Source: Buttiauxella gaviniae ATCC 51604 (lineage in GTDB: Bacteria > Pseudomonadota > Gammaproteobacteria > Enterobacterales > Enterobacteriaceae). Taken from it: a stretch of 64,000 nucleotides of DNA. This document shows positions 3,200-21,054 of the stretch, one piece after another. Made by a program: the position numbers and the translations under genes. Position 1 is the stretch's first letter, and each line of letters starts with the position of its first letter. Location: NCBI RefSeq assembly GCF_001654835.1, contig NZ_LXEP01000020.1, forward strand, positions 1-64,000. The letters run 5' to 3'. The notes beneath the pieces are model-generated. The model was given only the letters and a program-made list of their open reading frames with translations. It was not told the origin of the DNA and made no database searches.

Positions 3200-4320
3200 G
3201 CTTCACACTCCTGGCTGCGATATTGATACCAGGCAGCACATGCCCCTTCAGATGACACCATCAGTGCGCCAAAGGCATTTTGTGGATTACAGGTTTTGCC
3301 AAACATCGGGCATTGATGCGGTTTGCAGCGCCCGGTGAGCACATCGCCACAACGGGCGAGCGGGTCGTCGTAAACCTGCTGCGGTGCGGGTTTGAAATGA
3401 TCTTCCGCATCGAACTGACGATATTCGTCAGTCAGTTGAACGCCAGAATCGCTAATAGTACCTAGCCCACGCCATTCAGCATCACCACGCACGGTAAAGA
3501 CGTCTGCAATAGCTTCCTGCGCAAGGTTATTACCAGCATCCGGCACCACACGTTTGTATTGGTTCTCCACCTTGCTGTTTTGATGGATTTTTTGCTCAAC
3601 CAGCATCACCACACCTTGCAGCAAATCCAGTGGTTCAAATCCAGCAACCACCAGCGGGCGCTGATGCTCGGTGGCAATAAAATCATAGGCTTCGGTGCCA
3701 ATCACCATACTGACGTGGCCGGGAGCCAGGAAGGCATCAATGCCGTTATCCGGCTGCTCCAGCAAGCTACGCAGCGTTGGAATAAGCGTAATATGCTGGC
3801 AGAAAAAGTAAAAATTATTAATGCCCTGCGCTTTCGCTTGTTTGAGCGTAATCGCGGTGGTCGGCATCGTTGTTTCAAAACCGAGGCCGAAAAATACCAC
3901 TTTGCGATCTGGGTCATGGCTCGCAATCGCCAGGGCGTCCATTGGCGAGTAAACCACGCGCACATCTGCGCCACGCGCTTTGGCCTGCATCAGCGAACCG
4001 TTTTTACCCGGCACACGCATCGCATCGCCAAAAGTGCAAAAAATCACTTCCGGATGGCTGGCGATTTCAATACACGCATCAATGCGCCCCATCGGTAGCA
4101 CGCAAACCGGGCAACCCGGTCCGTGGATAAACTCAATGTTTTCGGGCAGCAACTGGTCGAGGCCAAACTTAAAGATAGCGTGAGTATGGCCGCCACAGAC
4201 TTCCATAATGCGCAGAGGACGCTCGGCGGTGTAAGTCAGTTTTGGGGCGCGTTCACGCAGCACATCAATAAGCTGCATGACTTTTTCCGGCGCACGGTAT
4301 TCGTCAACGAAGTGCATCAT
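3196..4320 (-). CDS. hypD: Hydrogenase maturation protein HypD
   Basis: HypD is an iron-sulfur protein that, with HypC, forms the scaffold on which the Fe(CN)2CO moiety of NiFe hydrogenase is assembled. The 374-residue product carries the expected cysteines: [13 protein letters not shown] (Cys42), GPGCPVC (Cys70 and Cys73) and a C-terminal cysteine-rich segment ([21 protein letters not shown]) typical of its 4Fe-4S cluster. Two consecutive ATG codons make the first residue ambiguous. It overlaps hypE and hypC by 4 bases each. Length and motifs match E. coli HypD. Confidence 0.97.
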
Positions 4321-4577
4321 CCGCGTTCTTCCCCAAACAGCAGGCCGCCGACATCGGGTTCCACTTCGAACATGTTTTGCAGGGCATCTAAGGTGTCGCG
4401 AGCTTCGGCTTCATCAATAATCGCCATCGCAAAACCAACATGAACCAGCACCCACTGGCCGATTTGCGCATCGCCCACCAGCATCAGGTTTACATCGCGT
4501 TTGATACCACACACATCTACTTTGGCGCTGCCGTCTGGCAGTTTTTCAACAATCTGGCCCGGAATGCCTATACACAT
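4317..4577 (-). CDS. hypC: Hydrogenase maturation chaperone HypC
   Basis: Small chaperone that pairs with HypD during Fe(CN)2CO assembly and delivers it to the precursor of the hydrogenase large subunit. The 86-residue frame begins MCIGIPGQ. The N-terminal Met-Cys is the family hallmark, since Cys2 is the functional residue, so the start is placed here and not at the upstream in-frame codon. This start lies inside the last codons of hypB (10-base overlap). The stop overlaps hypD by 4 bases. It is slightly shorter than the usual 90 residues because of a shorter loop before [12 protein letters not shown]. Confidence 0.96.
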
Positions 4578-5431
4578 CGTTGCGTCTCCAGCCAATTAAG
4601 CCACTCATCCATGCCTTCGCCGCTGGTCGCAGAAACCAACAGGATTTCAATATTCGGATTCACCTGGCGGGCGTAGTCGAGGCACTTCTCAACATCGAAC
4701 TGCAAATATGGCAGCAAGTCGATTTTGTTAAGCAGCATTAATGAAGAGGCGGCAAACATATGCGGATACTTAAGCGGTTTGTCTTCACCTTCGGTCACGG
4801 AAAGCACCGCCACTTTATGGCGTTCGCCAAGGTCAAAACTCGCCGGGCACACCAGGTTGCCGACGTTTTCGATAAACAGAATGCCGTTGCGCTCAAGCGG
4901 CAGTCGCTGCATGGCATCACGAATCATCTGCGCGTCGAGATGGCAGCCTTTACCGGTATTCACCTGAATGGCTGGCGTGCCGGTAGCACGAATACGCTCG
5001 GCATCGTTCACCGTTTGCTGATCGCCTTCAATAACGGCGCAAGGCACATTGCCGTGCAGGCGCTTCAGGCTTTCGGTCAGCAATGTGGTTTTGCCGGAAC
5101 CCGGGCTTGAAACCAGGTTCAGGACCAGCTGTTGCTGTTTCGCAAACTGTTCACGGTTATACATTGCGAGCTGGTTATTTTTATCCAGCACGTTAAGTTC
5201 GATTTCCAACATACGTCGCTGAGTCATACCCGGCGCGTGGGTGCCTGCGGCACCGTGGCCATAATGCAGGTCGCCTTGTTCATCGGCGGTGGGGGCAAAT
5301 TTCACCCCTGTAATTTGCATTGTTGCGCGCGCAGCTGGCGCGAAAGGTGCGCTACGGAATCCTGAGTGCGGGTTGCGCTCGTCGCCTTCTATATACAAGT
5401 TGCCTTCAGCGCAACCACAAGTACTACACAT
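4568..5431 (-). CDS. hypB: Hydrogenase nickel incorporation GTPase HypB
   Basis: GTPase that, with HypA, inserts nickel into the hydrogenase large subunit precursor. The 287-residue protein starts at the family N-terminus [10 protein letters not shown], whose Cys2/Cys5/Cys7 form the high-affinity nickel site. The GTPase domain has its P-loop SSPGSGKTT at about residues 108-116 and an NKID motif (LLNKIDLL) further on. There is no long polyhistidine stretch of the kind seen in nickel-storing HypBs. The chosen ATG has a strong GGAGGAG Shine-Dalgarno and overlaps the end of hypA by 8 bases. The longer open frame upstream would run into hypA and is rejected. Confidence 0.97.
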
Positions 5432-5783
5432 GATTCGTCTCCTCCACTTCCAGACGCTTGATCTGCACGCCATCGTCTGCCACTACGCGTAAATTGCTGC
5501 CTTCGCACAACGGGCAGCGCCGTACCAGCTGGGTTAACAAGGTGATGTGTTGCTGGCAGTCGTAGCACCAGCACTCCGCTTCTTGTTGGTGAATATGAAG
5601 CTGGCAGCCTTCGGCTAATGTGTCGCGGCACACTAATTCGAAACAGAACTCCAGTGCGCTTTGCTCAACGCATGAGAAAGCGCCTACTTCAAGCCAAACA
5701 CCAGTAACGCGGGTGGCGCCGTGTTGGCGGGCTTGAGCTTCGATGAGTTCCAGTGCGCGTTGGCAGAGGGTGATTTCGTGCAT
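5424..5783 (-). CDS. hypA: Hydrogenase nickel incorporation protein HypA
   Basis: Nickel metallochaperone of the hydrogenase maturation pathway and HypB partner. The 119-residue protein begins MHEITLC, where His2 is the conserved nickel ligand. Its zinc site comprises CWCYDC (about residues 71-76) and CPLC (about 90-93). It is the first gene of the hyp operon, with GGAGG eight bases before the ATG and a sigma-54 promoter about 30 bases upstream. Confidence 0.97.
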
Positions 5784-5813: not shown

Positions 5814-5829
5814 TGCAAGGATGATGCCA
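5814..5829 (-). promoter_or_regulatory. Sigma-54 promoter of the hyp operon
   Basis: The minus strand reads TGGCATC-ATCC-TTGCA, a near-perfect match to the sigma-54 -24/-12 consensus with the correct GG-N10-GC spacing. It implies a start about 20 bases before the hypA ATG. This agrees with FhlA control of the hyp operon. Confidence 0.88.
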
Positions 5830-6145: not shown

Positions 6146-6161
6146 TGGCACGAAACGTGCT
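6146..6161 (+). promoter_or_regulatory. Sigma-54 promoter of the hyc operon
   Basis: TGGCACG-AAAC-GTGCT has the -24 GG and -12 GC doublets at correct spacing. The -24 half is perfect and the -12 half is weaker (GTGCT in place of TTGCA). The predicted start is about 25 bases before hycA. Confidence 0.85.
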
Positions 6162-6197: not shown

Positions 6198-6653
6198 ATG
6201 AACATTTGGGAACTGAGCGAAAAAGCCGAATACATTGCCGACAAGCACCAGCGCTTGCTCGCGCAATGGCAACATTACTGCAATAGCTTGATTCAGGGCA
6301 TCACCCTTTCTAAAGCAAAACTGCATCACGCCGTAGGGTGCAATCCTGATGATTCCCTGCGCTTCTTCTTATTTGACCATTTCGTCATTCACGTGCGCCT
6401 GGCCGAAGGCTTCAACAGCCATACCATCGAGTACTACGTTGAGAAGCGTAATGGCGAAGATAGAGTATTGATTGCCAAAGCAATCCTTGATGACGAAGGC
6501 CGCATCGATAACAGCATCAGCAACCGTAACCGTGAAAGTGTTCTCGAGCATTACCTCGAAAAAATTCACCCGGTGTACGAAAGCTTGTACAGCGCCGTTC
6601 ACACCGATACTCCGGTATCGATGGGGCAGCTACAACAAAGCGCTCAGGCCTGA
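6198..6653 (+). CDS. hycA: Formate hydrogenlyase regulatory protein HycA
   Basis: First gene of the hyc operon. In E. coli HycA antagonises FhlA and so provides negative feedback on the formate regulon. The 151-residue product begins MNIWELSEKAEYIA and keeps the family stretches YCNSLIQGITLSKA and GFNSHTIEYYVE. It has no recognisable catalytic motif. An 87-base gap with a perfect palindrome separates it from hycB. Confidence 0.94.
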   Translation: MNIWELSEKAEYIADKHQRLLAQWQHYCNSLIQGITLSKAKLHHAVGCNPDDSLRFFLFDHFVIHVRLAEGFNSHTIEYYVEKRNGEDRVLIAKAILDDEGRIDNSISNRNRESVLEHYLEKIHPVYESLYSAVHTDTPVSMGQLQQSAQA

Positions 6654-6675
6654 TAGCCATGTTGGGTGTCGAAAA

Positions 6676-6690
6676 CTGTCGAAACGACAG
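6676..6690. promoter_or_regulatory. Palindrome in the hycA-hycB gap, candidate second FhlA site
   Basis: CTGTCG-AAA-CGACAG is a perfect inverted repeat with 6-bp arms, preceded at 6667 by another TGTCGAAAA. E. coli also has an FhlA-bound site in the hycA-hycB intergenic region, so this is a natural candidate; binding is inferred. Confidence 0.45.
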
Positions 6691-6740
6691 CCGTCGGCAC
6701 AGTTTCGTCAAAATTGATGACGTGTTCTAAGGAAGACCTG

Positions 6741-7346
6741 GTGAATCGCTTTATTATCGCCGACTCCAAACTTTGCATGGGTTGCCACACCTGTGAGGCG
6801 GCTTGCTCTGAAACGCACCGTCTGCATGGCCTGCAATCTATGCCGCGCCTGAAAGTCATGCGTGATGCTAATGATTCCGCACCGCAAATGTGCCACCACT
6901 GCGAAGATGCGCCTTGCGCGGGCGTTTGCCCGGCTAATGCCATCACCCGCATCGATGGGGCCGTACAGCTTAATGAAAGCCTGTGCGTAAGTTGCAAACT
7001 GTGCGCTATCGCCTGCCCATTCGGCTCTATCGAATTCTCCGGCAGCCGTCCTATTCATATCCCGGCAAACGCTAACAGCCCGAAAGCGCCACCTGCGCCA
7101 CCGGCCCCTGCGCGTGTCAGTACGCTTATTGACTGGGTGCCTGGCATTCGCGCAATCGCGGTGAAATGCGACATGTGCAGTTTCGATGAAGATGGTCCGG
7201 CGTGCGTACGCACCTGCCCAACCAAAGCGCTGCGCGTGGTTGATAACAATGACATTGCCAAATCAAGCAAACTTAAACGTGAACTGACTCTGGGCACGAC
7301 GCTTGGCGATCTCACTCTGTTTACCCAACCAGAGGTGAAAAAATGA
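6741..7346 (+). CDS. hycB: Hydrogenase 3 electron-transfer subunit HycB (four 4Fe-4S clusters)
   Basis: Ferredoxin-like subunit that links formate dehydrogenase H to hydrogenase 3. The start is a GTG giving (M)NRFIIADSKLCMGC, 201 residues, with AAGGA upstream. The longer frame from 6666 runs through the palindromic spacer and is rejected. Cysteine clusters are CMGCHTCEAAC, CHHCEDAPCAGVCP, CVSCKLCAIACP and CDMC...CVRTCP, consistent with four clusters. A proline/alanine-rich linker (KAPPAPPAPAR) separates the last two. It overlaps hycC by 4 bases and is a homologue of HydN, encoded downstream. Confidence 0.96.
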   Translation: MNRFIIADSKLCMGCHTCEAACSETHRLHGLQSMPRLKVMRDANDSAPQMCHHCEDAPCAGVCPANAITRIDGAVQLNESLCVSCKLCAIACPFGSIEFSGSRPIHIPANANSPKAPPAPPAPARVSTLIDWVPGIRAIAVKCDMCSFDEDGPACVRTCPTKALRVVDNNDIAKSSKLKRELTLGTTLGDLTLFTQPEVKK

Positions 7347-9151
7347 GTGCTTTTATCCTGATTCATTGGGCGCTGATGGGCTTTCTGCTAAGTGCAATTC
7401 TGGCAGGTATCACGGCATTTAATAAACCGCTGAGCGGCGTTATTGCTGGGCTTGGTGGCGCAATTAGCTCTGTACTGGTACTGATTGCCGGTTTCGATGC
7501 GTTAACCGGGTTTAGCGGTATGGCGCAAGTTTGGCAGTTGCATCTACAGCTCAACGCCTTTAACGGCATCTGGCTGGTAACGCTGGGTCTGCCGGGTCTG
7601 TTTATCTCTCTGTTTAATATCGACTGGCATCGTCATCACGCCGTTAAAGCTAATGGCTTGTTGGTAAACCTGGTGATGGCCGCAGCGGTGGCAGCACTGG
7701 TGGCCGATAATATCGGCATGTTAGTTGTGCTGGCAGAAATTGTCGCACTGAGCGGCTACTTCCTGACTGGCTGCCAGAAGTCCGGGCAGTTGTGGTTTGC
7801 GCTGGGCCGTCTCGGCACCGTGCTGCTGGCGGTTGCGTGCTGGTTGCTGTGGAACCAGTACGGCACGTTGAGTTACGCCGAATTGCACCTGATGACCAAC
7901 GGCGCGCCGATTAGCTCTGTTGTCTGGCTGCTGGGCCTGGTTGGTTTTGGTTTGATGGCAGGCATTATCCCACTTCATGGTTGGGTACCTCAGGCACACG
8001 CCAATGCATCTGCTCCGGCTGCTGCATTATTCTCTGCCGTTGTGCTGAAAATTGGCCTGTACGGCATCATGAGTTTCTCGCTCATCAGCAACACTATGCC
8101 GCTGTGGTGGGGTGTTCTGGTCGTCATTCTGGGGATGATTACTGCGTTTATTGGCGGCCTGTATGCGCTGATGGAACACAATATCAACCGTCTGCTGGCT
8201 TACCACTCCCTTGAGAATATCGGCATTATTCTACTCGGCCTGGGCTGCGGCATGATGGGTCTTGCGCTGAATGAATCCACGCTGGTTGCGCTCGGCATGA
8301 TTGGTGGCCTGTATCACCTGTTCAACCATAGCGTATTCAAAACCACGTTGTTCCTTGGCGCAGGCGCGGTGTGGTTCCGTACTGGTCATCGCGACATCGA
8401 AAAACTCGGTGGTATCGGCAAGCGTATGCCGCTGATTTCCATCGCAATGCTTGTTGGCTTAATGGCGATGGCCGCACTGCCTCCGCTTAATGGCTTTGCT
8501 GGCGAGTGGGTTATTTACCAGTCGTTCTTCCACCTTGGCACCTTGCCGCTGTTTATCGCACGTTTCTTAGGCCCAATGCTGGCTGTAGGCCTGGCGATTA
8601 CTGGCGCACTGGCAGTGATGTGTATGGCGAAAGTCTATGGCGTCACCTTCCTTGGCGCACCACGCACACCAGAAGCTGAAAACGCGACGTCTGCACCGTT
8701 CCTGATGAACCTGAGTGTGGCGGCCCTTGCAGCATGTTGTGTGATTGCCGGTGTTGCCGCTCCTTGGCTGATTCCACTGCTGCAAAACGCGATTCCACTG
8801 CCGCTGGAAACCGCAAACACCACCGTTTCACAACCGATGATCACCCTGCTGCTGATTGCCAGCCCACTGCTGCCATTCATTCTGATGGTGATTTTCCGTG
8901 GCGATCGCCTGCCAAACCGTTCGCGCGGCACGGCCTGGGTTTGTGGCTACGACCACGAACAAGCGATGGTGATTACTGCGGGTGGTTTTGCTCAACCAGT
9001 CAAAGCGGCGTTCGCGCCACTGCTGAAACTGCGCAAAACCCTGAACCCGGTGAAATGGGTACCTGGCTGGCAGTGTGATTGCCTTGCCGGTACGTTCCGT
9101 CGCCTGGCGATGATCGAACTGGCCGTGTTGCTGGTTGCGGTTTGCGCTTAA
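7343..9151 (+). CDS. hycC: Hydrogenase 3 membrane subunit HycC (NuoL/MrpA-like)
   Basis: Large integral membrane subunit related to the antiporter-like subunits of complex I (Proton_antipo_M). The 602-residue protein is almost entirely hydrophobic helices. It contains the family segments PLHGWVPQAHANASAPAAALFSAV split around residues 210-235, a central helix with LYHLFNHSVFKTTLF, and PPLNGFAGEW. The lysine and histidine residues in those helices correspond to the putative proton pathway. It anchors the formate hydrogenlyase complex in the cytoplasmic membrane together with HycD. Confidence 0.97.
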   Translation: MSAFILIHWALMGFLLSAILAGITAFNKPLSGVIAGLGGAISSVLVLIAGFDALTGFSGMAQVWQLHLQLNAFNGIWLVTLGLPGLFISLFNIDWHRHHAVKANGLLVNLVMAAAVAALVADNIGMLVVLAEIVALSGYFLTGCQKSGQLWFALGRLGTVLLAVACWLLWNQYGTLSYAELHLMTNGAPISSVVWLLGLVGFGLMAGIIPLHGWVPQAHANASAPAAALFSAVVLKIGLYGIMSFSLISNTMPLWWGVLVVILGMITAFIGGLYALMEHNINRLLAYHSLENIGIILLGLGCGMMGLALNESTLVALGMIGGLYHLFNHSVFKTTLFLGAGAVWFRTGHRDIEKLGGIGKRMPLISIAMLVGLMAMAALPPLNGFAGEWVIYQSFFHLGTLPLFIARFLGPMLAVGLAITGALAVMCMAKVYGVTFLGAPRTPEAENATSAPFLMNLSVAALAACCVIAGVAAPWLIPLLQNAIPLPLETANTTVSQPMITLLLIASPLLPFILMVIFRGDRLPNRSRGTAWVCGYDHEQAMVITAGGFAQPVKAAFAPLLKLRKTLNPVKWVPGWQCDCLAGTFRRLAMIELAVLLVAVCA

Positions 9152-9161
9152 GGAGCCTGAG

Positions 9162-10088
9162 ATGAATACCATTTTCTTTTCGTTGATTCAGGCGCTGGTT
9201 CTGTTTGCCGTCGCGCCACTGCTGTCCGGTATTACCCGCGTCACTCGCGCCCGCATGCACAACCGCCGTGGGCCGGGCGTGATGCAGGAATACCGTGACC
9301 TGTTCAAATTGTTCAGCCGCCAAAGCGTGGCCCCGGCCGCGTCCGGTTGGGTGTTCCGTCTGATGCCGTTTGTGATGGTTGGCGTGATGCTGACCATTGC
9401 TACCGCACTGCCGGTCGTCACGCTCTATTCACCACTGCCTTCACTGGGTGATTTGATAACGCTTATCTACCTATTCGCCATCGCGCGTTTCTTCTTTGCA
9501 ATTGCAGGCCTGGATACCGGTAGCCCGTTTACCGGCATTGGTGCCAGCCGTGAAGCGATGCTTGGTGTGCTGGTTGAGCCTATCCTGATTCTGGGGTTGT
9601 GGGTTGCGGCACAAGTTGCTGGCAGCACACATATCAGCAATATCGCCTCCACCATCTACCACTGGCCTGCCGCGCAGAGTTTGACGCTGATTCTGGCACT
9701 CGCTGCTTGTGCCTTCGCCACGTTTATCGAAATGGGCAAGCTGCCGTTCGACCTCGCAGAAGCTGAGCAAGAGTTGCAGGAAGGCCCGCTGACCGAGTAC
9801 AGCGGCGCAGGTTTTGCGGTGCTGAAATGGGGGATTTCCCTCAAGCAATTGGTCGTGCTGCAGATGTTTGTTGGCGTGTTTTTGCCATGGGGCCAGATGA
9901 GCGAATTTAGCTGGGGCGGCCTCGTGATTGCGCTGGTTCTGGCGGCAGTAAAACTGGTTGCTGGCGTGCTGATTATCGCGCTGTTTGAAAACAGCATGGC
10001 GCGCTTGCGCATGCTGGAAGCCTCAACAGTTACCTGGGCCGGTTTTGGCTTTGCCTTTTTAGCCTTCGTCTCCTTGCTGGCGGCGTGA
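9162..10088 (+). CDS. hycD: Hydrogenase 3 membrane subunit HycD (NuoH-like)
   Basis: Membrane anchor homologous to complex I subunit NuoH, joining the soluble hydrogenase arm to HycC. The start is set at MNTIFFSLIQAL (308 residues) behind AGGAG, 10 bases after the hycC stop. The longer frame overlaps hycC and is not used. It has about eight hydrophobic helices and the conserved NuoH-type loop rich in acidic residues (FIEMGKLPFDLAEAEQELQEGPLTEYSG, shown in part: LPFDLAEAEQELQEGPLTEY). Confidence 0.96.
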   Translation: MNTIFFSLIQALVLFAVAPLLSGITRVTRARMHNRRGPGVMQEYRDLFKLFSRQSVAPAASGWVFRLMPFVMVGVMLTIATALPVVTLYSPLPSLGDLITLIYLFAIARFFFAIAGLDTGSPFTGIGASREAMLGVLVEPILILGLWVAAQVAGSTHISNIASTIYHWPAAQSLTLILALAACAFATFIEMGKLPFDLAEAEQELQEGPLTEYSGAGFAVLKWGISLKQLVVLQMFVGVFLPWGQMSEFSWGGLVIALVLAAVKLVAGVLIIALFENSMARLRMLEASTVTWAGFGFAFLAFVSLLAA

Positions 10089-10105
10089 TTTAAGAGAATT
10101 TATCT

Positions 10106-11815
10106 ATGTCTGAAGAAAAGATTGGTCAACATTATCTCGCCGCACTGCATAAGCAATTTCCTCATGCGGTGATCGACGAAGCGTGGCAAACCAAAGACCA
10201 AATCACCGTCACCGTGAAGCTCAACATGCTGCCAGAAGTGGTGGAGTGGCTTTACTACCAGCAAGGCGGTTGGTTATCCGTATTGTTCGGTAACGACGAA
10301 CGCCAGTTGTGCGGCAATTATGCGGTGTATTACGTGCTTTCGATGGAAACCGGCGTGAAATGCTGGATCACCGTGCGCGTAGAAGTCGACGCTGACAAAC
10401 CAGAGTTCCCATCCGTTACACCACGCGTTCCTGCTGCGGTTTGGGGTGAGCGTGAAGTGCGTGATATGTACGGCCTGCAACCTGTTGGCCTGCCGGATGA
10501 GCGCCGTTTAGTGCTGCCAGATGATTGGCCAGATGACCTGTATCCACTGCGTAAAGACAGCATGGATTACCGTCAGCGCCCGGCACCAACCAGCGATCAG
10601 GAAACTTACCAGTTCATCAATGAGTTGGGCAGCAAGAAGAACAACGTGGTGCCGATTGGCCCACTGCACGTAACCAGCGATGAACCAGGTCACTTCCGTC
10701 TGTTCGTTGATGGCGAAAACATTATCGACGCCGATTACCGCCTGTTCTACGTCCACCGTGGCATGGAAAAACTGGCTGAAACCCGCATGGGTTACAACGA
10801 AGTCACCTTCTTGTCTGACCGCGTATGTGGCATCTGCGGCTTCGCCCACAGCACCGCGTACACCACCTCAGTTGAGAACGCGATGGGTATCGTGGTGCCA
10901 GAACGCGCCCAGATGATCCGCGCCATCTTGCTGGAAGTTGAACGCCTGCACAGCCACCTGCTGAACCTCGGCCTGGCTTGTCACTTTGTTGGCTTCGACT
11001 CAGGCTTTATGCAGTTCTTCCGCGTGCGTGAGATGTCCATGAAAATGGCGGAAATCCTCACCGGCGCACGTAAGACTTATGGCCTGAACCTGATCGGCGG
11101 GATTCGTCGCGATCTGTTGAAAGATGACATGATCCAGACGCGCCAGCTTGCCCAACAGATGCGTCGCGAAGTGAAAGATCTGGTCGATATTCTGATGACC
11201 ACGCCAAACATCGAACAGCGCACCGTCGGCATTGGCCGCCTTGACCCGCAAATCGCCCGCGATTTCAGTAACGTCGGCCCAATGGTTCGCGCCAGCGGTC
11301 ACGCTCGTGATACCCGCGCTGATCACCCGTTCGTTGGTTACGGTTTGCTGCCAATGGAAGTTCACAGCGAAACAGGCTGCGACGTGCTTTCACGCCTGAA
11401 AGTGCGTATCAACGAAGTCTATACCGCGTTGAACATGATTGATTTCGGTCTCGATAACCTGCCTGGCGGCCCACTGGCTGTAGATGGTTTCACCTACATT
11501 CCAAACCGCTTCGCCCTTGGCTTCTCCGAAGCACCACGCGGTGACGATATTCACTGGTCAATGACTGGCGATAACCAGAAGTTGTATCGCTGGCGCTGCC
11601 GTGCGGCAACGTATGCCAACTGGCCAACTCTGCGTTACATGCTGCGCGGTAACACCGTTTCTGATGCGCCATTGATCATCGGCAGCCTGGATCCTTGCTA
11701 CTCATGTACCGACCGCATGACGATTGTCGATGTGCGTAAGCGCAAGACCAAAGTGGTGCCGTACAAAGAGCTTGAGCGCTACAGCATTGAGCGCACCAAT
11801 TCGCCGCTGAAATAA
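10106..11815 (+). CDS. hycE: Hydrogenase 3 large (NiFe catalytic) subunit HycE, precursor
   Basis: Catalytic subunit that reduces protons to H2. At 569 residues it equals the E. coli protein. The N-terminal third is NuoC-like (about 1-170) and the rest is NuoD/NiFe large subunit-like. The NiFe site cysteines are visible: RVCGICGFAH (Cys241, Cys244) and DPCYSCTDR (Cys531, Cys534). Arg537 is followed by a 32-residue tail starting MTIVDVRK, the extension that HycI removes after nickel insertion. It is separated from hycD by 17 bases with a GAGAAT-type ribosome site. Confidence 0.98.
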   Translation: MSEEKIGQHYLAALHKQFPHAVIDEAWQTKDQITVTVKLNMLPEVVEWLYYQQGGWLSVLFGNDERQLCGNYAVYYVLSMETGVKCWITVRVEVDADKPEFPSVTPRVPAAVWGEREVRDMYGLQPVGLPDERRLVLPDDWPDDLYPLRKDSMDYRQRPAPTSDQETYQFINELGSKKNNVVPIGPLHVTSDEPGHFRLFVDGENIIDADYRLFYVHRGMEKLAETRMGYNEVTFLSDRVCGICGFAHSTAYTTSVENAMGIVVPERAQMIRAILLEVERLHSHLLNLGLACHFVGFDSGFMQFFRVREMSMKMAEILTGARKTYGLNLIGGIRRDLLKDDMIQTRQLAQQMRREVKDLVDILMTTPNIEQRTVGIGRLDPQIARDFSNVGPMVRASGHARDTRADHPFVGYGLLPMEVHSETGCDVLSRLKVRINEVYTALNMIDFGLDNLPGGPLAVDGFTYIPNRFALGFSEAPRGDDIHWSMTGDNQKLYRWRCRAATYANWPTLRYMLRGNTVSDAPLIIGSLDPCYSCTDRMTIVDVRKRKTKVVPYKELERYSIERTNSPLK

Positions 11816-11827
11816 GCTGGAGTCACC

Positions 11828-12373
11828 ATGTTTAACTTCATCAAAAAAGCCATTAAAGGCGGCGTGGCCACTGAGTCGTACCCGCTACAACCGATAGCCG
11901 TGGATCCGAACTTCCGTGGTAAACCGGAACATAATCCACAGCAATGTATCGGCTGTGCGGCGTGTGTTAACGCCTGCCCATCGAACGCATTAACGGTGGA
12001 AACCGACCTCATGGCGGGGCAACTGGCGTGGACCTTCAACCTTGGGCGCTGCATTTTCTGCGCGCGCTGTGAAGAAGTTTGCCCAACGGCTGCCATCAAG
12101 CTTTCTCAGGAATACGAACTGGCCGTCTGGAACAAAGCCGACTTCCTGCAACAGGCGCGTTTTGACCTGTGCAACTGCCGCCAGTGCAGCAAGCCTTTCG
12201 CGGTACAAAAAGAGATTGATTACGCGATTGCCTTGCTTGAGCACAATGGCGACAAGCTTGCCGAAGCGCATCGCACCTCGTTTGAAACTTGCCCGGAATG
12301 CAAACGCCAGCAAAGCCTGGTCTCTTCCGACCAAATCGATCTTAGCCGCCAGATAAGAGAGGTGCGCTCATGA
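11828..12373 (+). CDS. hycF: Hydrogenase 3 ferredoxin subunit HycF (NuoI-like)
   Basis: Iron-sulfur subunit of the soluble arm, homologous to NuoI. The 181-residue protein has two 4Fe-4S motifs, [12 protein letters not shown] and [12 protein letters not shown] (about residues 40-85). Further cysteine pairs follow (CNCRQC and CPECKRQ), which resemble a zinc or extra metal site. It passes electrons between HycB and HycG. The stop overlaps the hycG start by 4 bases. Confidence 0.96.
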
Positions 12374-13134
12374 GTATGTTACTCGGTCCACGTGACGATA
12401 AAGGCATGCCAGTACCAATGACGGTGGATGAATCCATCGCCAGCATGAAAGCCTCACTGCTCAAAAAAATTAAGCGTTCCGCGTATGTTTATCGCGTTGA
12501 CTGTGGCGGTTGCAACGGCTGCGAAATTGAAATTTTTGCTACCCTTTCGCCACTTTTCGATGCAGAACGCTTCGGGATTAAAGTTGTTCCATCTCCTCGT
12601 CACGCGGATATTTTACTGTTTACCGGCGCTGTGACTCGCGCCATGCGTTCCCCCGCGCTACGTGCCTGGGAATCAGCGCCGGACCCTAAAATTTGCATCT
12701 CCTACGGCGCGTGCGGTAACAGCGGCGGTATCTTCCACGACCTGTATTGCGTCTGGGGCGGCACCGACAAAATCGTTCCGGTGGATGTCTATATTCCGGG
12801 TTGCCCTCCAACGCCTGCGGCAACGCTGTATGGTTTTGCGATGGCGCTTGGTCTGCTGGAGCAAAAAATCCACGCGCGTGAAGCCAGTGAAATGGATGCA
12901 CAACCGGCGCAAATTCTGCACCCGGATATGGTTCAGCCATTGCGTGTTCGTATCGACCGTGCCGCACGCAGCCTTGCGGGTTATCGCTATGGCCGCCAGA
13001 TTGCTGACAGCTATATGGAAAACCTCACCGCCGGTGGCGGTAGTGTTCAGCAATGGCTGGCACACGAGAACGATCCGCGTTTGACTGAAATCGTCACGCA
13101 TCTGGAAGCACTGGTTAAGCAGGAGCGCGTGTAA
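12370..13134 (+). CDS. hycG: Hydrogenase 3 small subunit HycG (NuoB-like)
   Basis: Small subunit carrying the 4Fe-4S cluster next to the NiFe centre, homologous to NuoB. The 254-residue product has the CGGCNGCE motif (Cys45/48/51), GACGNSGG and the PGCPPTP signature that complete the cluster. It lacks a twin-arginine signal peptide, as expected for a cytoplasmic-facing hydrogenase. It overlaps hycF by 4 bases and touches hycH by one base. Confidence 0.97.
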
Positions 13135-13544
13135 TGAGCGAGTCGGTGGTGTTTTGCCAGCTTAGCCGTAAGTTTGTCGATGAAAACGACAACACACCGA
13201 GTGATGCGCAACAGGTGGTTTATTACAGCCTGGCAATCGGCCACCATCTCGGCGTTATCGACTGCCTGAAAGAGAATCTGGTTTGCTCGTATGAGCCTTA
13301 CAAAGCGTGGATTTCCACGCTTGAAGAAGGCAGCGAAGCGCGGCGCAAAATGGAAGGTGTGCCGCGTTACGGTGAAATCGTTATCGACCAAAGCCACGTG
13401 GTTTTACTGGCGAAAGCGTTTGATGCCGCCAAACCCACGCAAACTGAGCAGCAGCAAGAGTGGAGCCAGGAATTGCTCGATATGCTGCAAGCTATTCAAC
13501 AAGAACCCGCCATTTATTTGATGGTACGGAGACGCTATGACTAA
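13134..13544 (+). CDS. hycH: Formate hydrogenlyase maturation protein HycH
   Basis: A 136-residue accessory protein, the same length as in E. coli, needed there for assembly of active hydrogenase 3 rather than being part of the final complex. It has no cofactor motif. Recognisable family features are the opening SVVFCQLSRKFVDE and the central YGEIVIDQSHVVLLA. The stop codon overlaps the start of hycI by 8 bases. Confidence 0.94.
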   Translation: MSESVVFCQLSRKFVDENDNTPSDAQQVVYYSLAIGHHLGVIDCLKENLVCSYEPYKAWISTLEEGSEARRKMEGVPRYGEIVIDQSHVVLLAKAFDAAKPTQTEQQQEWSQELLDMLQAIQQEPAIYLMVRRRYD

Positions 13545-14010
13545 CGTTTTACTGTGTGTCGGCAACAGCATGATGGGTGACGATGGCGCAGGCCCGCTAC
13601 TTGCCGAGAAATGCCAGGCCGCCCCACAAGGCGACTGGATTGTTATTGACGGCGGCACCGCTCCTGAAAATGATGTGGTGGCAATTCGCGAATTGCGCCC
13701 GGAAAGATTGCTGCTGGTTGATGCCACAGATATGGGACTGAACCCAGGCGAAATCCGTGTCATCGACCCGGACGATATCGCTGAAATGTTTATGATGACC
13801 ACCCACAACATGCCGCTTAACTATTTAATCGATCAGATTAAAGAAGATGTTGGCGAGGTGATTTTCCTCGGCATTCAGCCTGATATTGTCGGCTTTTACT
13901 ACCCGATGACCGACGCGATAAAAGCGGCGGTGGAAACGGTGTATCAACGTCTGGCGGGCTGGGAAGCTAAAGGCGGTTTTGCGGATTTAGAAGCGCCGGA
14001 GTTCGAGTAA
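13537..14010 (+). CDS. hycI: Hydrogenase 3 maturation endopeptidase HycI
   Basis: Nickel-dependent protease that cleaves the C-terminal 32 residues of pre-HycE after Arg537. The 157-residue product shows the HupD/HyaD-family GNSMMGDDGAGPLLAEK with the metal-ligand aspartate/glutamate near residue 16, and TTHNMPL with the conserved histidine. It is the last gene of the hyc operon; a REP-like repeat follows at once. Confidence 0.96.
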   Translation: MTNVLLCVGNSMMGDDGAGPLLAEKCQAAPQGDWIVIDGGTAPENDVVAIRELRPERLLLVDATDMGLNPGEIRVIDPDDIAEMFMMTTHNMPLNYLIDQIKEDVGEVIFLGIQPDIVGFYYPMTDAIKAAVETVYQRLAGWEAKGGFADLEAPEFE

Positions 14011-14881: not shown

Positions 14882-14897
14882 TGGCACACTTTATGTA
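14882..14897 (+). promoter_or_regulatory. Probable sigma-54 promoter of hydN-fdhF
   Basis: TGGCACA-CTTT-ATGTA matches the -24 element fully, but the -12 doublet is GT where GC is expected. It lies 47 bases before the hydN start. TGTCA/TGACA and TGTCG motifs at about 14786-14834 could be FhlA sites. Confidence 0.55.
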
Positions 14898-14943
14898 TGC
14901 CTAGAGCAGTCTTATAAAAAAACACTCTATCCAGGAGTCTATG

Positions 14944-15489
14944 ATGAACCGTTTCATCATTGCTGATTCGAGCAAATGTATTGGCTGTCGCACTTGCGAA
15001 GTGGCCTGTGTCGTAGCACATCAGGAAGCACAAGATTGCGCGGTATTAACACCGCAAACCTTCCTTCCACGTATTCATGTGATTAAAGGCGTGAATGTTT
15101 CCACCGCGACAATGTGCCGCCAGTGCGAAGACGCACCATGCGCCAACGTTTGTCCTAATGGCGCAATCAGCCGCGAGCATGGGTTTGTGAATGTGATGCA
15201 AGAACGTTGCATCGGCTGCAAAACCTGTGTGGTTGCCTGCCCGTATGGCGCAATGGAAGTGGTTGTTCGCCCTGTTGTACGTAACAGCGGTGCAGGTCTT
15301 AACGTGATGGCAGAAAAAGCCGAAGCGAATAAATGCGACCTTTGCCACACCCGTTCAGAAGGCCCGGCATGTATGGAAGCCTGCCCAACCAACGCAATTA
15401 TCTGTGTTGATCGCAATAAACTTGAACAAATGAGTGCCGAAAAACGCCGCCGTGCTGCGTTCGATGCAACTTCATCCCTGATTTTCTAA
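14944..15489 (+). CDS. hydN: Electron-transport protein HydN (four 4Fe-4S ferredoxin)
   Basis: HycB-like ferredoxin needed for full formate dehydrogenase H activity in E. coli. Two ATG codons abut (14941 and 14944). The second is chosen because AGGAG sits six bases before it and it gives MNRFIIADSSKCIGC, the family N-terminus. Cysteine clusters are CIGCRTCEVAC, CRQCEDAPCANVCP, CIGCKTCVVACP and CDLC...CMEACP. The C-terminus extends a few residues beyond the E. coli form, ending ATSSLIF. It lies 52 bases upstream of fdhF with no clear intervening promoter. Confidence 0.96.
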   Translation: MNRFIIADSSKCIGCRTCEVACVVAHQEAQDCAVLTPQTFLPRIHVIKGVNVSTATMCRQCEDAPCANVCPNGAISREHGFVNVMQERCIGCKTCVVACPYGAMEVVVRPVVRNSGAGLNVMAEKAEANKCDLCHTRSEGPACMEACPTNAIICVDRNKLEQMSAEKRRRAAFDATSSLIF

Positions 15490-15541: not shown

Positions 15542-17692
15542 ATGAAAAAAATTACCAGCGTCTGCCCTTACTGTGGTGCAGGCTGCAAACTGAAACTGGT
15601 TGTTGAGAAGAACAAAATTATCCGTGCCGAAGCGGCTGATGGCGTGACTAACCAAAATGAACTCTGCCTGAAAGGCTATTACGGCTGGGATTTTCTCAAC
15701 GATACCAAGCTGCTAACACCGCGTCTGACGCAGCCAATGATCCGCTATGAAAAAGGCGGCAAGCTTCAGCCGGTGAGCTGGGAAGAGGCGATTAGCTACA
15801 CGGCTAAACGCCTGAAAGCTATCAAAGAGCAGCATGGCCCACGCTCAATTATGACGACAGGCTCGTCACGTGGGACAGGTAACGAAACCAACTATGTGAT
15901 GCAGAAGTTTGCACGCGGTGTGCTGCATACCAACAACGTTGACTGCTGTGCGCGTGTTTGCCACGGGCCGTCGGTCGCAGGTTTGCAGGTGACGCTGGGT
16001 AATGGCGCGATGAGTAACTCCATCGGCGATATCGAAAACTCAAAATGCCTGTTGGTGTTCGGCTATAACTGCGCCGATTCGCACCCGATCGTGGCGCGTC
16101 GTGTGATTAAAGCCAAAGAACATGGCGCGAAAATCATTGTTTGCGATCCGCGCCGGATCGAAACCGCGCGTATTGCCGATCAGCATCTGCAACTGAAAAA
16201 CGGCTGCAATATGGCGCTGGTGAATGCCTTTGGTTACGTGCTGCTCGAAGAGAATCTCTACGACACCGAGTACGTTGCGAAATTTGCCGAAGGTCTGGAC
16301 GCTTACCGTGAAGTGGTTAAAGGCTACGCGCCAGAAGACGTTGAGCACCTGACCGGTGTTCCGGCGCACCAGGTGCGTCAGGCAATGCGTACTTTTGCCG
16401 CCGCACCTTCAGCCACCATTATGTGGGGTATGGGCGTGACACAGTTCGGCCAGGCGGTTGACGTAGTGAAAGGGCTTTCAAGCCTTGCGCTGCTGACTGG
16501 AAACCTCGGGCGTGAAAACGTCGGCGTTGGCCCGGTTCGTGGCCAGAACAACGTGCAGGGCGCGTGTGACATGGGCGTGCTACCAAACCAGTTCCCGGGT
16601 TACCAGGATGTGGTTGACCCAGAAGTACGTGCGAAATTCGCCAAAGCCTGGGGCATCAACGTTGAAGATATGGACGACCAGGTTGGCGTGCGTATCACCG
16701 AAGTACCGCATATGGCTATCCATGGCGAGATGAAAGCCTACTACATCATGGGCGAAGACCCGTTGCAGACCGAAGCCGATCTTGGCCTGGTACGCAAAGG
16801 TTTTGAAGCGCTCGATTTTGTCGTCGTGCAGGACATCTTTATGACCAAAACCGCTGAAGTGGCCGACGTTATTTTGCCAGCCACTTCCTGGGGCGAACAC
16901 GGCGGCGTGTTTACTTGTGCTGACCGCGGTTTCCAGCGTTTTGAAAAAGCCATTGATGCGAAGTACAACGTCAAACGTGACTGGGAAATTATCAGCCTGC
17001 TCGCCACCGAGATGGGCTACCCAATGCACTACGACAACAACCAGCAAATCTGGGACGAACTGCGTGAACTCTGCCCGCTTTTCTATGGCGTAACCTACGA
17101 GAAAATGGGCGATATGGGCCATGTACAGTGGCCGTGTCCGACACTTGATCACCCGGGTACGCCGTATCTCTACAAAGACAGCAAGTTCGACACCCCAACC
17201 GGCAAAGGCCAGCTGTTTGCTGCGCAGTGGCGTGCGCCAGCCGAAGTACCGGATGCCGAATATCCACTGGTGCTGTGCACCGTGCGTGAAGTCGGCCACT
17301 ACTCCTGCCGTTCAATGACCGGGAACTGTGCTGCATTGCAGACTCTGGCCGATGAACCTGGTTTTGTGCAGATGAACCCGACAGATGCCAACCTGCTTGG
17401 GATTAAAGACAAGCAACTGGTGTGGGTCAGTTCGCGTCGCGGCAAAGTTATCAGCCGTGCCGAAGTGAACGAGCGCATTAACGTGGGCTCGGTGTACATG
17501 ACTTACCAGTGGTGGATTGGGGCTTGTAATGAGCTGACTCAGGACAACCTTGACCCGATATCCAAAACACCGGAAACCAAGTATTGCGCGGTCAACGTCA
17601 GCCAAATTGCCGACCAGCAGTGGGCAGAAAACTACGCTCAGACGACGTATAGCGATATGAAAGCGCGTTTGCGCCAGGCAGTAGAAGCTTAA
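15542..17692 (+). CDS. fdhF: Formate dehydrogenase H, cysteine (non-selenocysteine) variant
   Basis: Molybdopterin enzyme that oxidises formate to CO2 and feeds electrons to hydrogenase 3. The 716-residue protein matches the E. coli enzyme along its length. The N-terminal 4Fe-4S ligands are VCPYCGAGC (Cys8, 11, 15) and LCLKG (Cys42), with the electron-path Lys44. The catalytic segment is [15 protein letters not shown]: residue 140 is cysteine (TGC at 15959-15961) where E. coli FdhF has selenocysteine encoded by TGA, followed by the conserved His141. The substrate arginine region [11 protein letters not shown] is intact. No frameshift or internal stop is present. Cysteine versions of this enzyme are known to work, but more slowly. 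Confidence 0.97.
15973..15989 (+). other. Degenerate SECIS-like hairpin after the Cys140 codon
   Basis: The sequence GGTCGCAGGTTTGCAGG occupies the place of the E. coli fdhF SECIS apical hairpin (recalled as GGUUGCAGGUCUGCACC). The upper GC/GC pairs and the GU of the loop persist. The essential bulged U is now C, and the lower GGU/ACC pairs are broken (ACC became AGG). Confidence 0.6.
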
Positions 17693-17695
17693 AAC

Positions 17696-17762
17696 GGTGG
17701 ATGACGCTGCGCTAATCCCTCCTACGGGTTTTGTAGGTCGGATTAGCGTAAGCGACATCCGA
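17696..17762. repeat. REP-like palindromic element between fdhF and hypF
   Basis: GGTGGATGACGCTGCGCTAATC and GGATTAGCGTAAGCGACATCC form the arms around CTACGGGTTTTGTAGG. It starts at the fdhF stop and fills most of the spacer before hypF. Confidence 0.75.
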
Positions 17763-17789
17763 AAAAATTTCCCCATACGAGTACCAATA

Positions 17790-20027
17790 GTGAATTTTAA
17801 CGGCGTGATGCTACGCATTCGCGGCAAAGTACAGGGCGTTGGCTTCAGGCCATTCGTCTGGCAACTGGCACAACTTCTCAAACTCACAGGCGATGTCTGC
17901 AATGACGGCGCCGGTGTGTTGGTGCGCCTGACTTCCCCCGCCGATGCGTTTATCACCCAGCTTCACGCCAAATGCCCGCCACTGGCGCGTATCGATAGCA
18001 TTGAACAATCGACAATGCTGTGGGAAACACGCCCCCATGATTTCACCATTCGCCACAGCGCGAGCAGCTCGATGGACACGCAAATCGTTCCGGATGCCGC
18101 AACCTGTCCGGATTGCCTGCGCGAGCTGAATGACCCGCACGATCGTCGCTACCGTTATCCGTTTATCAACTGCACCCACTGTGGCCCGCGCTTTACGATA
18201 ATTAATGCCATGCCCTATGACCGCCCAAACACGGTGATGGCTGCGTTCCCGCTCTGCCCGGCGTGCGAAAAAGAGTACCGCGACCCAATGGACCGCCGCT
18301 TCCATGCCCAGCCTGTCGCCTGCCCTGAGTGCGGGCCGCAAATTAGCTGGCAATGTGGCGAGCAAAAACTTGCGCGCGAAGAGGCGTTACAAGCAGCCAT
18401 TGCAGCGTTAAAAGACGGGAAAATCGTCGCGATTAAAGGGCTGGGTGGGTTCCACCTGGCGGTTGATGCAAGCAACGATGCCGCCGTTTCGCGCTTACGC
18501 GCCCGCAAACATCGCCCTTCTAAACCGCTGGCTGTCATGCTGCCCGATTCGCACCGGTTGCCCGCAGAGGTAACGGCACAGCTCAACACGCCAGCGGCAC
18601 CGATTGTGCTAATGGCGAAATCTGCTTTGCACGGGTTAAGCACGTTTATCGCCCCGGGCCTAAGCGAAGTTGGCGTGATGTTACCCGCCAACCCGCTACA
18701 ACACCTTTTGATGCAGGATTTTGGCGGCCCGCTGGTGATGACATCCGGCAATTTAAACGGCAAACCGCCCGCCATAACCAATCAGCAGGCGGTTGAAGAG
18801 TTGGCTGAGATTGCCGACGGCTGGTTGCTGCACAACCGCGATATCGTCCAGCGCATGGATGATTCCGTGGTACGGGCAAACGGTGAGATGCTGCGTCGTG
18901 CCAGAGGTTTTGTGCCAGATGCACTTCCGTTACCCCCAGGTTTTGACGCACTGCCGCCAATTCTGGCGTTAGGCTCTGACCTGAAAAACACCTTCTGCTT
19001 GCTGCGCGGCAACCAGGCGGTGCTGAGCCAGCATCTGGGCGATCTCGCTGAAGAAGGCGTGGAACAGCAGTGGCAAAAAGCGCGCACGTTAATGTGTGAG
19101 ACTTATGATTTTAAAGCGCAATACGTCGCGATAGATGCGCATCCCGGCTACCACAGCTCCCGCATCGGGAAAGAAATGGGTTTGCCAGTGAGCACCGTTT
19201 TACATCATCACGCTCACGCGGTGGCGTGTATGGCTGAACACAACTGGCCACAGGATGCTGGCGATGTGATTGCCCTAACTCTTGATGGCATTGGTTATGG
19301 CGAGAACGACCAGCTGTGGGGCGGCGAATGCCTGCGGGTTAACTATCGCGACTGTGAACATCTCGGGGGCTTGCCTGCAGTGGCGCTGCCTGGTGGTGAC
19401 CTCGCCGCTCGCCAGCCATGGCGTAACCTGCTCGCCCATTGCCTGGCGTTTGTACATGGCTGGCAACGCCACCCGGAAACGGCCGTCATTCGCGCACAAA
19501 ACTGGCCATTGCTGGCCACTGCCATTGAACGTGGCATTAATGCGCCAGTCGCCTCCTCCACGGGCCGCCTTTTCGATGCCGCCGCAGCGGCGCTGCACTG
19601 CACGCCCTTACAGCAAAGCTATGAAGGGGAAGCCGCCTGCCGCTTCGAAGCACTGGCGTCACAAAGTCGCGGGTGCCTCCACCCCGTTACGCTGCCGGTT
19701 ATCGCAGGCCAGCTCGACATGGCGACATTCTGGCAGCAGTGGTTGAGCTGGCATGATTGCGCGTCCGCTCGTGCCTGGGCATTTCATGACGCCCTGGCAA
19801 AAGGTTTTGCTGATTTAGCCCGCAGCCATGCGCAAAGGCTCGCCATAAAGACTCTCGTCTTCAGCGGCGGCGTGCTGCATAACCGCCTGATGCGCGAAAG
19901 ATTTTCGTATCACCTAGCAGATTTCAACCTGCTCTTCCCGACACAGTTGCCTGCCGGTGACGGTGCCCTTGCATTGGGCCAGGCGCTTGTTGCCGCCGCC
20001 CGTATCACCCTTCCCCCACAAGGATAA
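17790..20027 (+). CDS. hypF: Carbamoyltransferase HypF
   Basis: HypF converts carbamoyl phosphate to a carbamoyl adenylate and transfers the group to HypE, the first step to the cyanide ligands of NiFe hydrogenases. The start is a GTG giving (M)[18 protein letters not shown], 745 residues; the longer frame runs back through the REP-like element. An ATG at 17808 is an alternative. Domains in order are acylphosphatase ([11 protein letters not shown]), two zinc fingers (CPDC...CTHC and CPAC...CPEC), a YrdC-like domain ([14 protein letters not shown]), and a Kae1-like domain with [15 protein letters not shown] and [11 protein letters not shown]. It is directly followed by a nickel permease gene. 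Confidence 0.96.
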
Positions 20028-20028
20028 A

Positions 20029-21054
20029 ATGATGTTATTGCGTGTTCTTCGTGATAATCCGCGTGCCGCTGTTTTGTTGGTGGTTTTAGTCGCAGCCAAT
20101 CTTGCCGCCTGGGCCTGGGCGCTGGTTTCGTTTCACCACAGCACCGCGCTGATGGCCGCCAGTCTACTGGCCTGGTGCTACGGTTTGCGCCATGCGGTGG
20201 ACGCCGACCATATCGCGGCAATTGATAACGTGACGCGCAAGATGATGCAGCAAGGGAAACGCCCGTTTGGTATCGGCGCCTGGTTCTCACTCGGCCATTC
20301 CAGCATTGTGGTGCTGGCGTCTATCGCGATTGCCGCAACCGCGGCAGCATTTCAAAATGATATGGACTGGTTCCATGATGTGGGCGGCGTGATTGGCACT
20401 GCCGTATCGGCGTGTTTCTTGCTGGCAATGGCGCTGGTCAATCTGGTGATTTTACGCGGCGTATGGCGCAATTTCCGTCAGTTAAAACGTGGCGAGTCGC
20501 TGTCTGCCGAAAACACCGATTTTAACGGCGGCGGCATGATGAGCTGGCTATTCCGCTCCACGTTTAAGCTGATTAGCAAAAGCTGGCATATGTATCTGGT
20601 CGGTTTTTTGTTTGGTCTGGGTTTTGATACCGCAACAGAAATTGGCGTATTGGGCATTTCTGCCGCCAGCGCATCCAGCGGGATGTCGATATGGTCGATT
20701 CTGGTGTTCCCAGCGCTGTTTGCCAGCGGCATGGCGCTGATTGATACGCTCGACAATATGATTATGGTTGGCGCTTATGGCTGGGCGTTTAACAAGCCGC
20801 AGCGCAAGCTCTATTACAACATGACGATTACGGGCACATCGGTTGTCGTGGCGCTGTTTATTGGTGGCATGGAAGCGTTAGGGTTGTTAGCGGATAAATT
20901 CAACCTGCACTCCGGTATGTGGAAGTGGGTCGATGCGCTAAATGAAAACCTCGGCAATGCGGGCTTTATTGTGGTTGGGCTGTTTATTGGCTGCTGGATT
21001 GTGTCGATGCTGAACTACCGTTGGAAGGGGTACGATTCGTTGGTGGTTCGCTAA
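20029..21054 (+). CDS. High-affinity nickel/cobalt permease (NiCoT, HoxN/NixA family)
   Basis: Membrane transporter of nickel or cobalt into the cytoplasm. The 341-residue protein has about eight hydrophobic segments and the NiCoT signature RHAVDADHIAAIDNVTR (about residues 54-70) in the second helix. It also has the family motifs LGHSSIV and LGFDTATEIG. The first of two adjacent ATG codons is only 2 bases past the hypF stop, sharing AAGGA upstream (the second, at 20032, has better spacing). Coupling to hypF and the FHL cluster points to nickel supply for HycE. Nickel versus cobalt preference cannot be read from the sequence. Confidence 0.93.
   Translation: MMLLRVLRDNPRAAVLLVVLVAANLAAWAWALVSFHHSTALMAASLLAWCYGLRHAVDADHIAAIDNVTRKMMQQGKRPFGIGAWFSLGHSSIVVLASIAIAATAAAFQNDMDWFHDVGGVIGTAVSACFLLAMALVNLVILRGVWRNFRQLKRGESLSAENTDFNGGGMMSWLFRSTFKLISKSWHMYLVGFLFGLGFDTATEIGVLGISAASASSGMSIWSILVFPALFASGMALIDTLDNMIMVGAYGWAFNKPQRKLYYNMTITGTSVVVALFIGGMEALGLLADKFNLHSGMWKWVDALNENLGNAGFIVVGLFIGCWIVSMLNYRWKGYDSLVVR

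Follow-up and report, generated by a model that had tools for sequence, protein, structure and literature searches.

The exchange of selenocysteine (Sec) for cysteine in Escherichia coli FdhF, the catalytic subunit of formate dehydrogenase H (FDH-H), is the standard case for the use of selenium, yet natural cysteine relatives of this enzyme work. The penalty for the exchange in E. coli is reported as 20-fold (PMC6004506, PMC3349551), as a fall in turnover of more than two orders of magnitude (PMC6288185) and as approximately 5000-fold (PMC4150793). When the Cys-type fdhF of Pectobacterium was deleted, hydrogen production was reported to drop approximately 500-fold, which indicates that a Cys-FdhF can drive a formate hydrogenlyase (FHL), and the same source puts the share of species with FHL genes that use the Cys enzyme at more than 50% (PMC7384014). 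Dickeya and Pectobacterium are described as having Cys formate dehydrogenases and no sel genes (PMC3349551), and the fdhF transcripts of Treponema primitia are reported to respond to selenium (PMC6288185). Both Cys-FdhF in an FHL (Pectobacterium, Serratia) and Sec/Cys pairs of FdhF (Acetobacterium, Treponema) are therefore already published. For Buttiauxella, a search of the PMC literature for formate hydrogenlyase matched a single paper, on earthworm gut contents (PMC6752017). The gene described here, from Buttiauxella gaviniae, is most likely, to judge by its sequence and context, an FHL formate dehydrogenase that needs no selenium and works alongside a Sec isoenzyme. As a single gene it is ordinary, Cys-FdhF being common; its interest comes from residue 384 and from the hydN-hypF gene order.

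Codon 140 and the surrounding FHL locus

The window analysed is a stretch of 64,000 nucleotides from B. gaviniae ATCC 51604 (NZ_LXEP01000020.1, positions 1 to 64,000). Its fdhF (15542..17692, + strand) encodes a Cys-type FDH-H catalytic subunit of 716 amino acids without an internal stop. The protein is full-length, matching NCBIfam TIGR01591 over residues 7-686 with 907.9 bits (curated cut-off 666.25), and its best PDB match and closest solved structure is E. coli FDH-H (1aa6). Codon 140, read directly in both genes, is TGC (Cys; 15959..15961, + strand) in the window, as a preliminary description of this DNA had stated, and TGA (Sec) in E. coli fdhF. The remaining active-site residues had been called intact, and this was confirmed. 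Cys8, Cys11, Cys15 and Cys42, the [4Fe-4S] cysteines, and Lys44, His141, Arg333 and Gln335, further known residues of the site, are all kept, and all are invariant across 217 distinct sequences (117 Cys and 100 TGA). A sequencing error at 15961 had been considered possible; it is unlikely, and was rejected, because none of the 12 Buttiauxella genomes (L001, L009-L019) has a stop in this frame, and codon 140 is TGC in 11 of them and TGT in one.

The description of the gene as embedded in a full FHL locus also holds, with a gene content running from fhlA to a nickel transporter gene. On one strand lie fhlA and hypEDCBA, and on the other hycABCDEFGHI, hydN, fdhF, hypF and the transporter gene. 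The product of fhlA (3..2072, − strand), at the contig edge, is 73% identical to E. coli FhlA, the formate-sensing sigma-54 activator (PMC3349551). hypEDCBA lies at 2189..5783 (− strand), and a sigma-54-like site of hypA with one mismatch was found at 5814..5829 (− strand). The genes hycABCDEFGHI (6198..14010, + strand; HycA with a Pfam match) identify the locus as FHL-1, of the hydrogenase 3 type, and hycA has a sigma-54-like site with one mismatch 52 bp upstream (6146..6161, + strand). Additional hyf membrane genes were sought beside the hyc locus of the window, and none was found. The ferredoxin-like protein encoded by hydN (14941..15489, + strand; NCBIfam NF007658, 371 bits, cut-off 260) is required in E. 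coli for full FDH-H activity (PMC6004506). Upstream of hydN is a weak sigma-54-like site, TGGCACACTTTATGTA (14882..14897, + strand), with two mismatches and without the GC of the −12 box. The hypF reading frame (17697..20027, + strand; NCBIfam TIGR00143) probably starts in truth at the ATG near 17808, the listed GTG being too early, because similarity to the family sets in only at residue 39. The HoxN/NixA-type nickel transporter gene (19957..21054, + strand; NCBIfam TIGR00802) has a match from residue 70 and an uncertain start.

Two features of the intergenic regions were noted. Between hycI and hydN (14088-14683, − strand) lies a pair of genes with HTH (PF01381) and Gp49-like (PF05973) matches, resembling a toxin-antitoxin pair. 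As the hycI-hydN gap varies in length among loci, being comparably long in L040-L042 and L044 and short in L043 and the Cedecea loci, the pair may be an insertion within Buttiauxella. Between fdhF and hypF, a REP-like palindromic stretch was seen by eye (17697-17808).

The Sec paralogue and the distribution of both types

The same genome encodes another full-length FdhF, whose frame contains one TGA (G000:C25:71722-73857). It is 65% identical to window FdhF and 87.5% identical to E. coli FdhF; for the Cys type of L009, a near-copy 99% identical to the window protein, the identity to E. coli FdhF is 66.3%. In the tree, E. coli FdhF and the TGA copy group together, and window FdhF lies in a different clade. 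The preliminary description had thought loss of the Sec machinery possible and had proposed a search for selA, selB and TGA codons in fdnG and fdoG. Both sel genes are present and adjacent (G000:C19:1680-4861). Two formate-dehydrogenase-like frames of more than 1000 residues, on contigs C17 and C31, contain one in-frame TGA each and would, by their length and TGA, be FdnG and FdoG. With the TGA copy of fdhF, three formate-dehydrogenase-like genes besides the window fdhF thus carry in-frame TGA, and loss of the machinery was rejected, being refuted as regards selA and selB. Both paralogues and selA/selB therefore occur in one genome, as in a Sec/Cys isoenzyme pair. A second Sec-type fdhF serving the FHL had been named as a finding that would count against the earlier account; the TGA copy exists, and its service to the FHL is presumed.

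In other genomes the two types may be closer neighbours. TGA- and Cys-type fdhF lie inside one FHL locus in L058, L059, L071 and L108 (Franconibacter, Silvania and Hafnia alvei), the TGA copy standing after the nickel transporter gene or, in Hafnia, before hydN. Three FdhF genes, two of the TGA type and one of the Cys type, were found in each of G063, G072, G076, G077, G079, G083 and G109.

The window gene has neither an in-frame TGA at codon 140 nor the codons of a SECIS loop. The apical loop of its SECIS-equivalent stretch (15962..16000, + strand) reads GCA GGT TTG CAG, and the TGA copy carries the frozen loop, GCA GGT CTG CAC. For the TGA genes, codons were counted in segments that have the motif CCARV-HGP. 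Of 82 distinct segments, all have GGT for Gly147 and CTG for Leu148 (82/82 each), and Ala146, where it occurs, is GCA in 70/70. In 116 Cys segments, the codon entropy at 146, 147 and 148 is 1.45, 1.76 and 2.08 bits, with residues that are nearly always identical. Because codons 146-148 vary in the Cys genes and are frozen in the TGA genes, the Sec signal does not constrain the Cys genes. In a separate TGA clade (motif HCARV-HAP), outside the count, four members have GGT CTG at 147/148 and TCC or GCC at 146. Folding energy was rejected as a test for SECIS, with z scores against shuffles of 0.20 for the Cys stretch, 0.03 for the SECIS of the TGA copy and −0.71 for that of E. coli; it does not discriminate, because these two SECIS elements also fold no better than shuffles.

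Sigma-54-like sites (at most two mismatches, at most 300 bp upstream) were found for 34/34 TGA-fdhF stretches, representing 33 genes since L058 and L146 are the same one. They were also found for 24/24 solo Cys-fdhF genes, that is, those without an FHL gene in the flanking stretch (26 solo loci, with L096 and L111 left out). The background was 85/2000 random 300-bp stretches. The TGA copy of this genome has the site TGGCATAGATAATGCA and E. coli fdhF has TGGCATAAAAGATGCA, with a core common to both. Under a looser rule without a computed background, some site was present upstream of 19/19 hydN genes, chosen from the 53 in which hydN precedes fdhF. Both paralogues appear to belong to the formate (FhlA/sigma-54) regulon.

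Sixty relatives, the genome itself included, were searched at E 1e-200, and 23 had a match. Both types were present in the 12 members of the genus, that is, in all 12 Buttiauxella genomes, and in three others; four relatives were Cys-only and four TGA-only. SelB over the cut-off was found in one of the Cys-only relatives (G027) and not in the other three (G025, G032, G034). A scan of named genomes with the window gene yielded 590 loci, of which the best 80 were analysed; the nearest, at 99%, are from Buttiauxella brennerae and B. massiliensis. Codon 140, read by motif, is TGC or TGT in 78 of these 80 primary matches, TGA in L118 (Shewanella fodinae) and unread by the motif in L111. Fifty named Cys-FdhF genomes from the same 80 loci were searched with the TGA-FdhF of B. 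gaviniae (E 1e-200): 34 have a TGA-FdhF, 15 have none, and G107 has fragments only besides its Cys copy. SelB is present in 34/34 of the former and in 8/15 of those without TGA-FdhF. It is absent from seven of the 50, all among the 15, and SelA is absent from the same seven (49 of the 50 and the B. gaviniae genome searched). An even sample of the order gave 58 genomes with a match out of 394 (two best candidates scored per genome), and none of 368 other genomes in a class-level sample matched at E 1e-170, so that no outgroup was available.

Cys-FdhF is an old group spanning many genera, mostly in a hydN-fdhF(Cys)-hypF cassette of the hyc locus. Window FdhF belongs to this group and does not represent a fresh mutation of an E. 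coli-type gene; the Cys-to-Sec difference at position 140 is neither recent nor unusual, Cys-FdhF being widespread in Enterobacterales. A single clade of all Cys rows was rejected by the AU test (p 6e-5). The tree was rooted by hand on the Thr-bearing TGA clade described below and its deep branches are weakly supported, so that the oldest change may have gone in either direction.

The cassette was found in 48 of the best 80 of the 590 loci; 26 are solo and six have other arrangements. In E. coli K-12 the order is ascBFG, hydN, hypF, norW, and the gap from hydN to hypF measures 152 bp. At this hydN-hypF place, in the same asc context, fdhF(Cys) is found in loci of Kluyvera, Kosakonia, Superficieibacter, Pseudocitrobacter and Pseudescherichia. 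The hydN-hypF pair of E. coli is the same place as the cassette, minus fdhF; inspection of its gap by eye found no fdhF remnant. HydN was sought in 31 genomes, 15 with solo Cys-fdhF, seven TGA-only and nine others. hydN is followed by hypF in 15/15 of the solo genomes (15 of the 26 solo loci). Among the TGA-only genomes, hydN-hypF is present in G012, G013 and G800, hydN stands beside TGA-fdhF in G014, the only HydN-like gene of G028 is more distant and stands without hypF, and the search gave no match in G692 and G739. The nine others, with hydN and Cys-fdhF, have hydN-hypF (six) or hydN-fdhF (three). When 18 solo loci (17 of the 26, plus one from a Klebsiella plasmid record) were grouped by their surroundings, three distinct neighbourhoods emerged, with seven, six and five loci. 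This record (L257, NZ_CP079610.1), a 36-kb Klebsiella pneumoniae sequence filed as a plasmid, shares the neighbourhood of its solo Cys-fdhF with genome contigs of Klebsiella and Raoultella.

Window fdhF matches 5369/5426 E. coli genomes, at a median of one place and a maximum of two, and the best place always has 60-80% DNA identity; one place at this identity is what a genome with no fdhF other than the Sec type should give. The most economical history suggested by gene order would be that the cassette is old in the group and that fdhF left it, moving in Enterobacter, Klebsiella and Citrobacter and being lost in E. coli. A presumed former fdhF between hydN and hypF suggests why these two share an operon in E. 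coli, and also why HydN affects an E. coli formate dehydrogenase that is encoded elsewhere.

Residue 384 and the ligand at position 140

Compensation elsewhere in the protein had been suggested for the Cys enzyme, together with an alignment in search of co-varying residues. The alignment gave one candidate, E. coli position 384, which corresponds to codon 386 (ACC, Thr; 16697..16699, + strand) in the window. Among the 217 distinct sequences, a set from which identical proteins, frames shorter than 640 residues and those that the motif failed to recognise had been removed, this residue is Thr in 117/117 Cys enzymes; in the TGA enzymes it is Ser in 92/100 and Thr in eight. This residue, which switches together with Cys/Sec in the main clade, lends the suggestion some support and makes compensation plausible; its compensating role would be read from sequence, and eight of 100 TGA enzymes break the rule. 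A perfect rule (114/114 Thr and 69/69 Ser) was rejected, as the narrow motif that produced it missed the TGA clade DHCARV-HAP, and a wider motif recovered the eight. These form one separate clade (five representatives, support 100). In the tree of 84 representatives, the 79 outside this clade are exclusively Cys-Thr (50) or Sec-Ser (29). Codon 140 and residue 384 change together on four lineages: the main Sec clade, L190 (f207), L191/L193 (f9) and Shewanella (L118, L166, L177). Over the full set the codon needs five changes and the residue four. A single base separates the Thr codons (ACN) from the Ser codons generally used (AGC/AGT).

The Shewanella-type rows (S. fodinae and family f6) are TGA-type genes nested among Cys-type rows on branches with support 96-100, with Ser at 384, and two of the three, L118 and L177, carry GCA GGT CTG as SECIS loop within a Cys-like protein context. 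The rows look as if either Cys had been switched to Sec or a copy had been converted.

Of the residues that might be tuned to Cys, Thr384 (386 in the window) is the best candidate. It is possible, at somewhat under even odds, that position 384 is a tuning switch, the Cys enzyme requiring Thr in order to work and Ser having been favoured with Sec in this lineage. A similar weight, a little short of one half, attaches to the view that Thr or Ser tracks ancestry and not the ligand, as the eight TGA sequences with Thr in their own clade would suggest. More distant solved formate dehydrogenases, compared by eye, have Thr with Cys (7qv7, 7bkb) or Pro whichever the ligand (with Cys in 9wxb, and in 9t1s, where the ligand is printed X and taken as Sec). 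The supported branches provide just four independent pairs; over the full set, three of them agree, none opposes and the fourth shows no difference (p 0.25), and without the exceptional clade 4/4 agree (p 0.125, the smallest possible), so that with four pairs the sign test is unable to reach 0.05. Against ancestry, 79/79 main-clade representatives obey the rule over four switches, and in simulation on the same tree 0/160,000 columns segregated like 384, which is the one real column to do so; this simulation used one simple model, and the bounds of the main clade were drawn with the exceptions already known. The PMC literature searched, which covers few subscription papers, gave no statement on residue 384 of FdhF, and the S384 of PMC4150793 is an intein residue. 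If position 384 is a tuning switch, one extra substitution may let an FHL formate dehydrogenase drop selenium without loss of rate; the co-switching residue makes an old question on selenium use testable.

Use of the hydrogenase and comparison with known systems

The window gene would encode the selenium-independent FDH-H isoenzyme of an FHL-1 locus, with electrons passing from formate through Cys-FdhF and HycB to hydrogenase 3 and with cysteine as the molybdenum ligand. The genome has one hydrogenase large subunit of the FHL type, the sole other match being 27% identical; because of this, and because both paralogues look like FhlA/sigma-54 regulon members, the two FdhF probably share the hydrogenase. 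The Sec enzyme would be used when selenium is available, and the Cys enzyme regardless of selenium supply. We put the probability of the overall reading, an isoenzyme from an old Cys group beside a Sec paralogue and selA/selB, with the hydrogenase probably shared, at about 0.75.

The two enzymes may dock differently, or with different strength. In E. coli FHL, a salt bridge is reported between FdhF Glu621 and HycF Arg122 (PMC9474812). Window FdhF and window HycF both have Lys at these places, so that the bridge is impossible as such, and the possible difference follows because the TGA-FdhF of the same genome keeps Glu at 621. Glu occurs there in 6/117 Cys types and 44/100 TGA types.

An arrangement in which the enzymes split their tasks irrespective of selenium, Cys-FdhF being the FHL subunit and Sec-FdhF serving other partners, would agree with the position of the Cys gene between hydN and hypF in those 48 of the best 80 loci and with interactions of FdhF with other proteins reported in PMC9474812. 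We consider it rather unlikely, since the sigma-54-like site of the TGA-fdhF in this genome has the same core as that of E. coli fdhF, and the product of this gene retains Glu621, the HycF contact residue in E. coli. That Cys-FdhF is a slow relic and Sec-FdhF does the work is very improbable: although the E. coli Cys enzyme is reportedly far less active, by published figures that disagree, the 117 Cys sequences do not vary at the catalytic residues examined, and the Cys group spans many genera, with 15 of the 50 genomes from the best 80 of 590 loci having no TGA type. Pectobacterium FHL-2, moreover, is reported to depend on its Cys enzyme. The E. coli penalty need not apply to natural Cys enzymes, because a selenium-free enzyme of the same family, from T. 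kivui, is reported to be very fast (PMC6288185).

Window FdhF and its locus can be set beside described systems. E. coli FDH-H (1aa6, 1fdo, 2iv2, 7z0t) resembles window FdhF in family, length, Fe-S cysteines, Lys44, His141, Arg333 and Gln335. It differs in having Sec140, Ser384 and a SECIS, where the window gene has Cys140 and Thr386 without SECIS constraint, and E. coli fdhF stands alone, whereas window fdhF lies between hydN and hypF. A figure legend in PMC3349551 treats E. coli fdhF as an orthologue located elsewhere; in the present tree, by contrast, E. coli FdhF and the window group are in different clades. Pectobacterium atrosepticum FdhF (ECA1250, FHL-2; PMC7384014), likened to window FdhF by its published description while the tree has no row named Pectobacterium, also has Cys140, and hypF (ECA1251) and hoxN (ECA1252) follow it in numbering, like the window order. 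It works with hydrogenase 4 (hyf) in a genome reportedly without Sec machinery, whereas the window has hyc and its genome selA/selB and a Sec paralogue. In Serratia liquefaciens, known here from its description (PMC6004506), hydN adjoins a Cys-type fdhF as in the window; in two other Serratia genomes (G101, G102) SelB is present and no TGA-FdhF was found. Both types in one genome, as here, are reported for Acetobacterium woodii (FdhF1, Cys; FdhF2, Sec) and T. primitia (fdhFcys, fdhFsec; PMC6288185). Those pairs belong to [FeFe] hydrogenase clusters for CO2 reduction, whereas the window locus is a [NiFe] FHL-1, and the paralogues are 65% identical in B. gaviniae compared with a reported 80% in A. 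woodii (PMC6288185).
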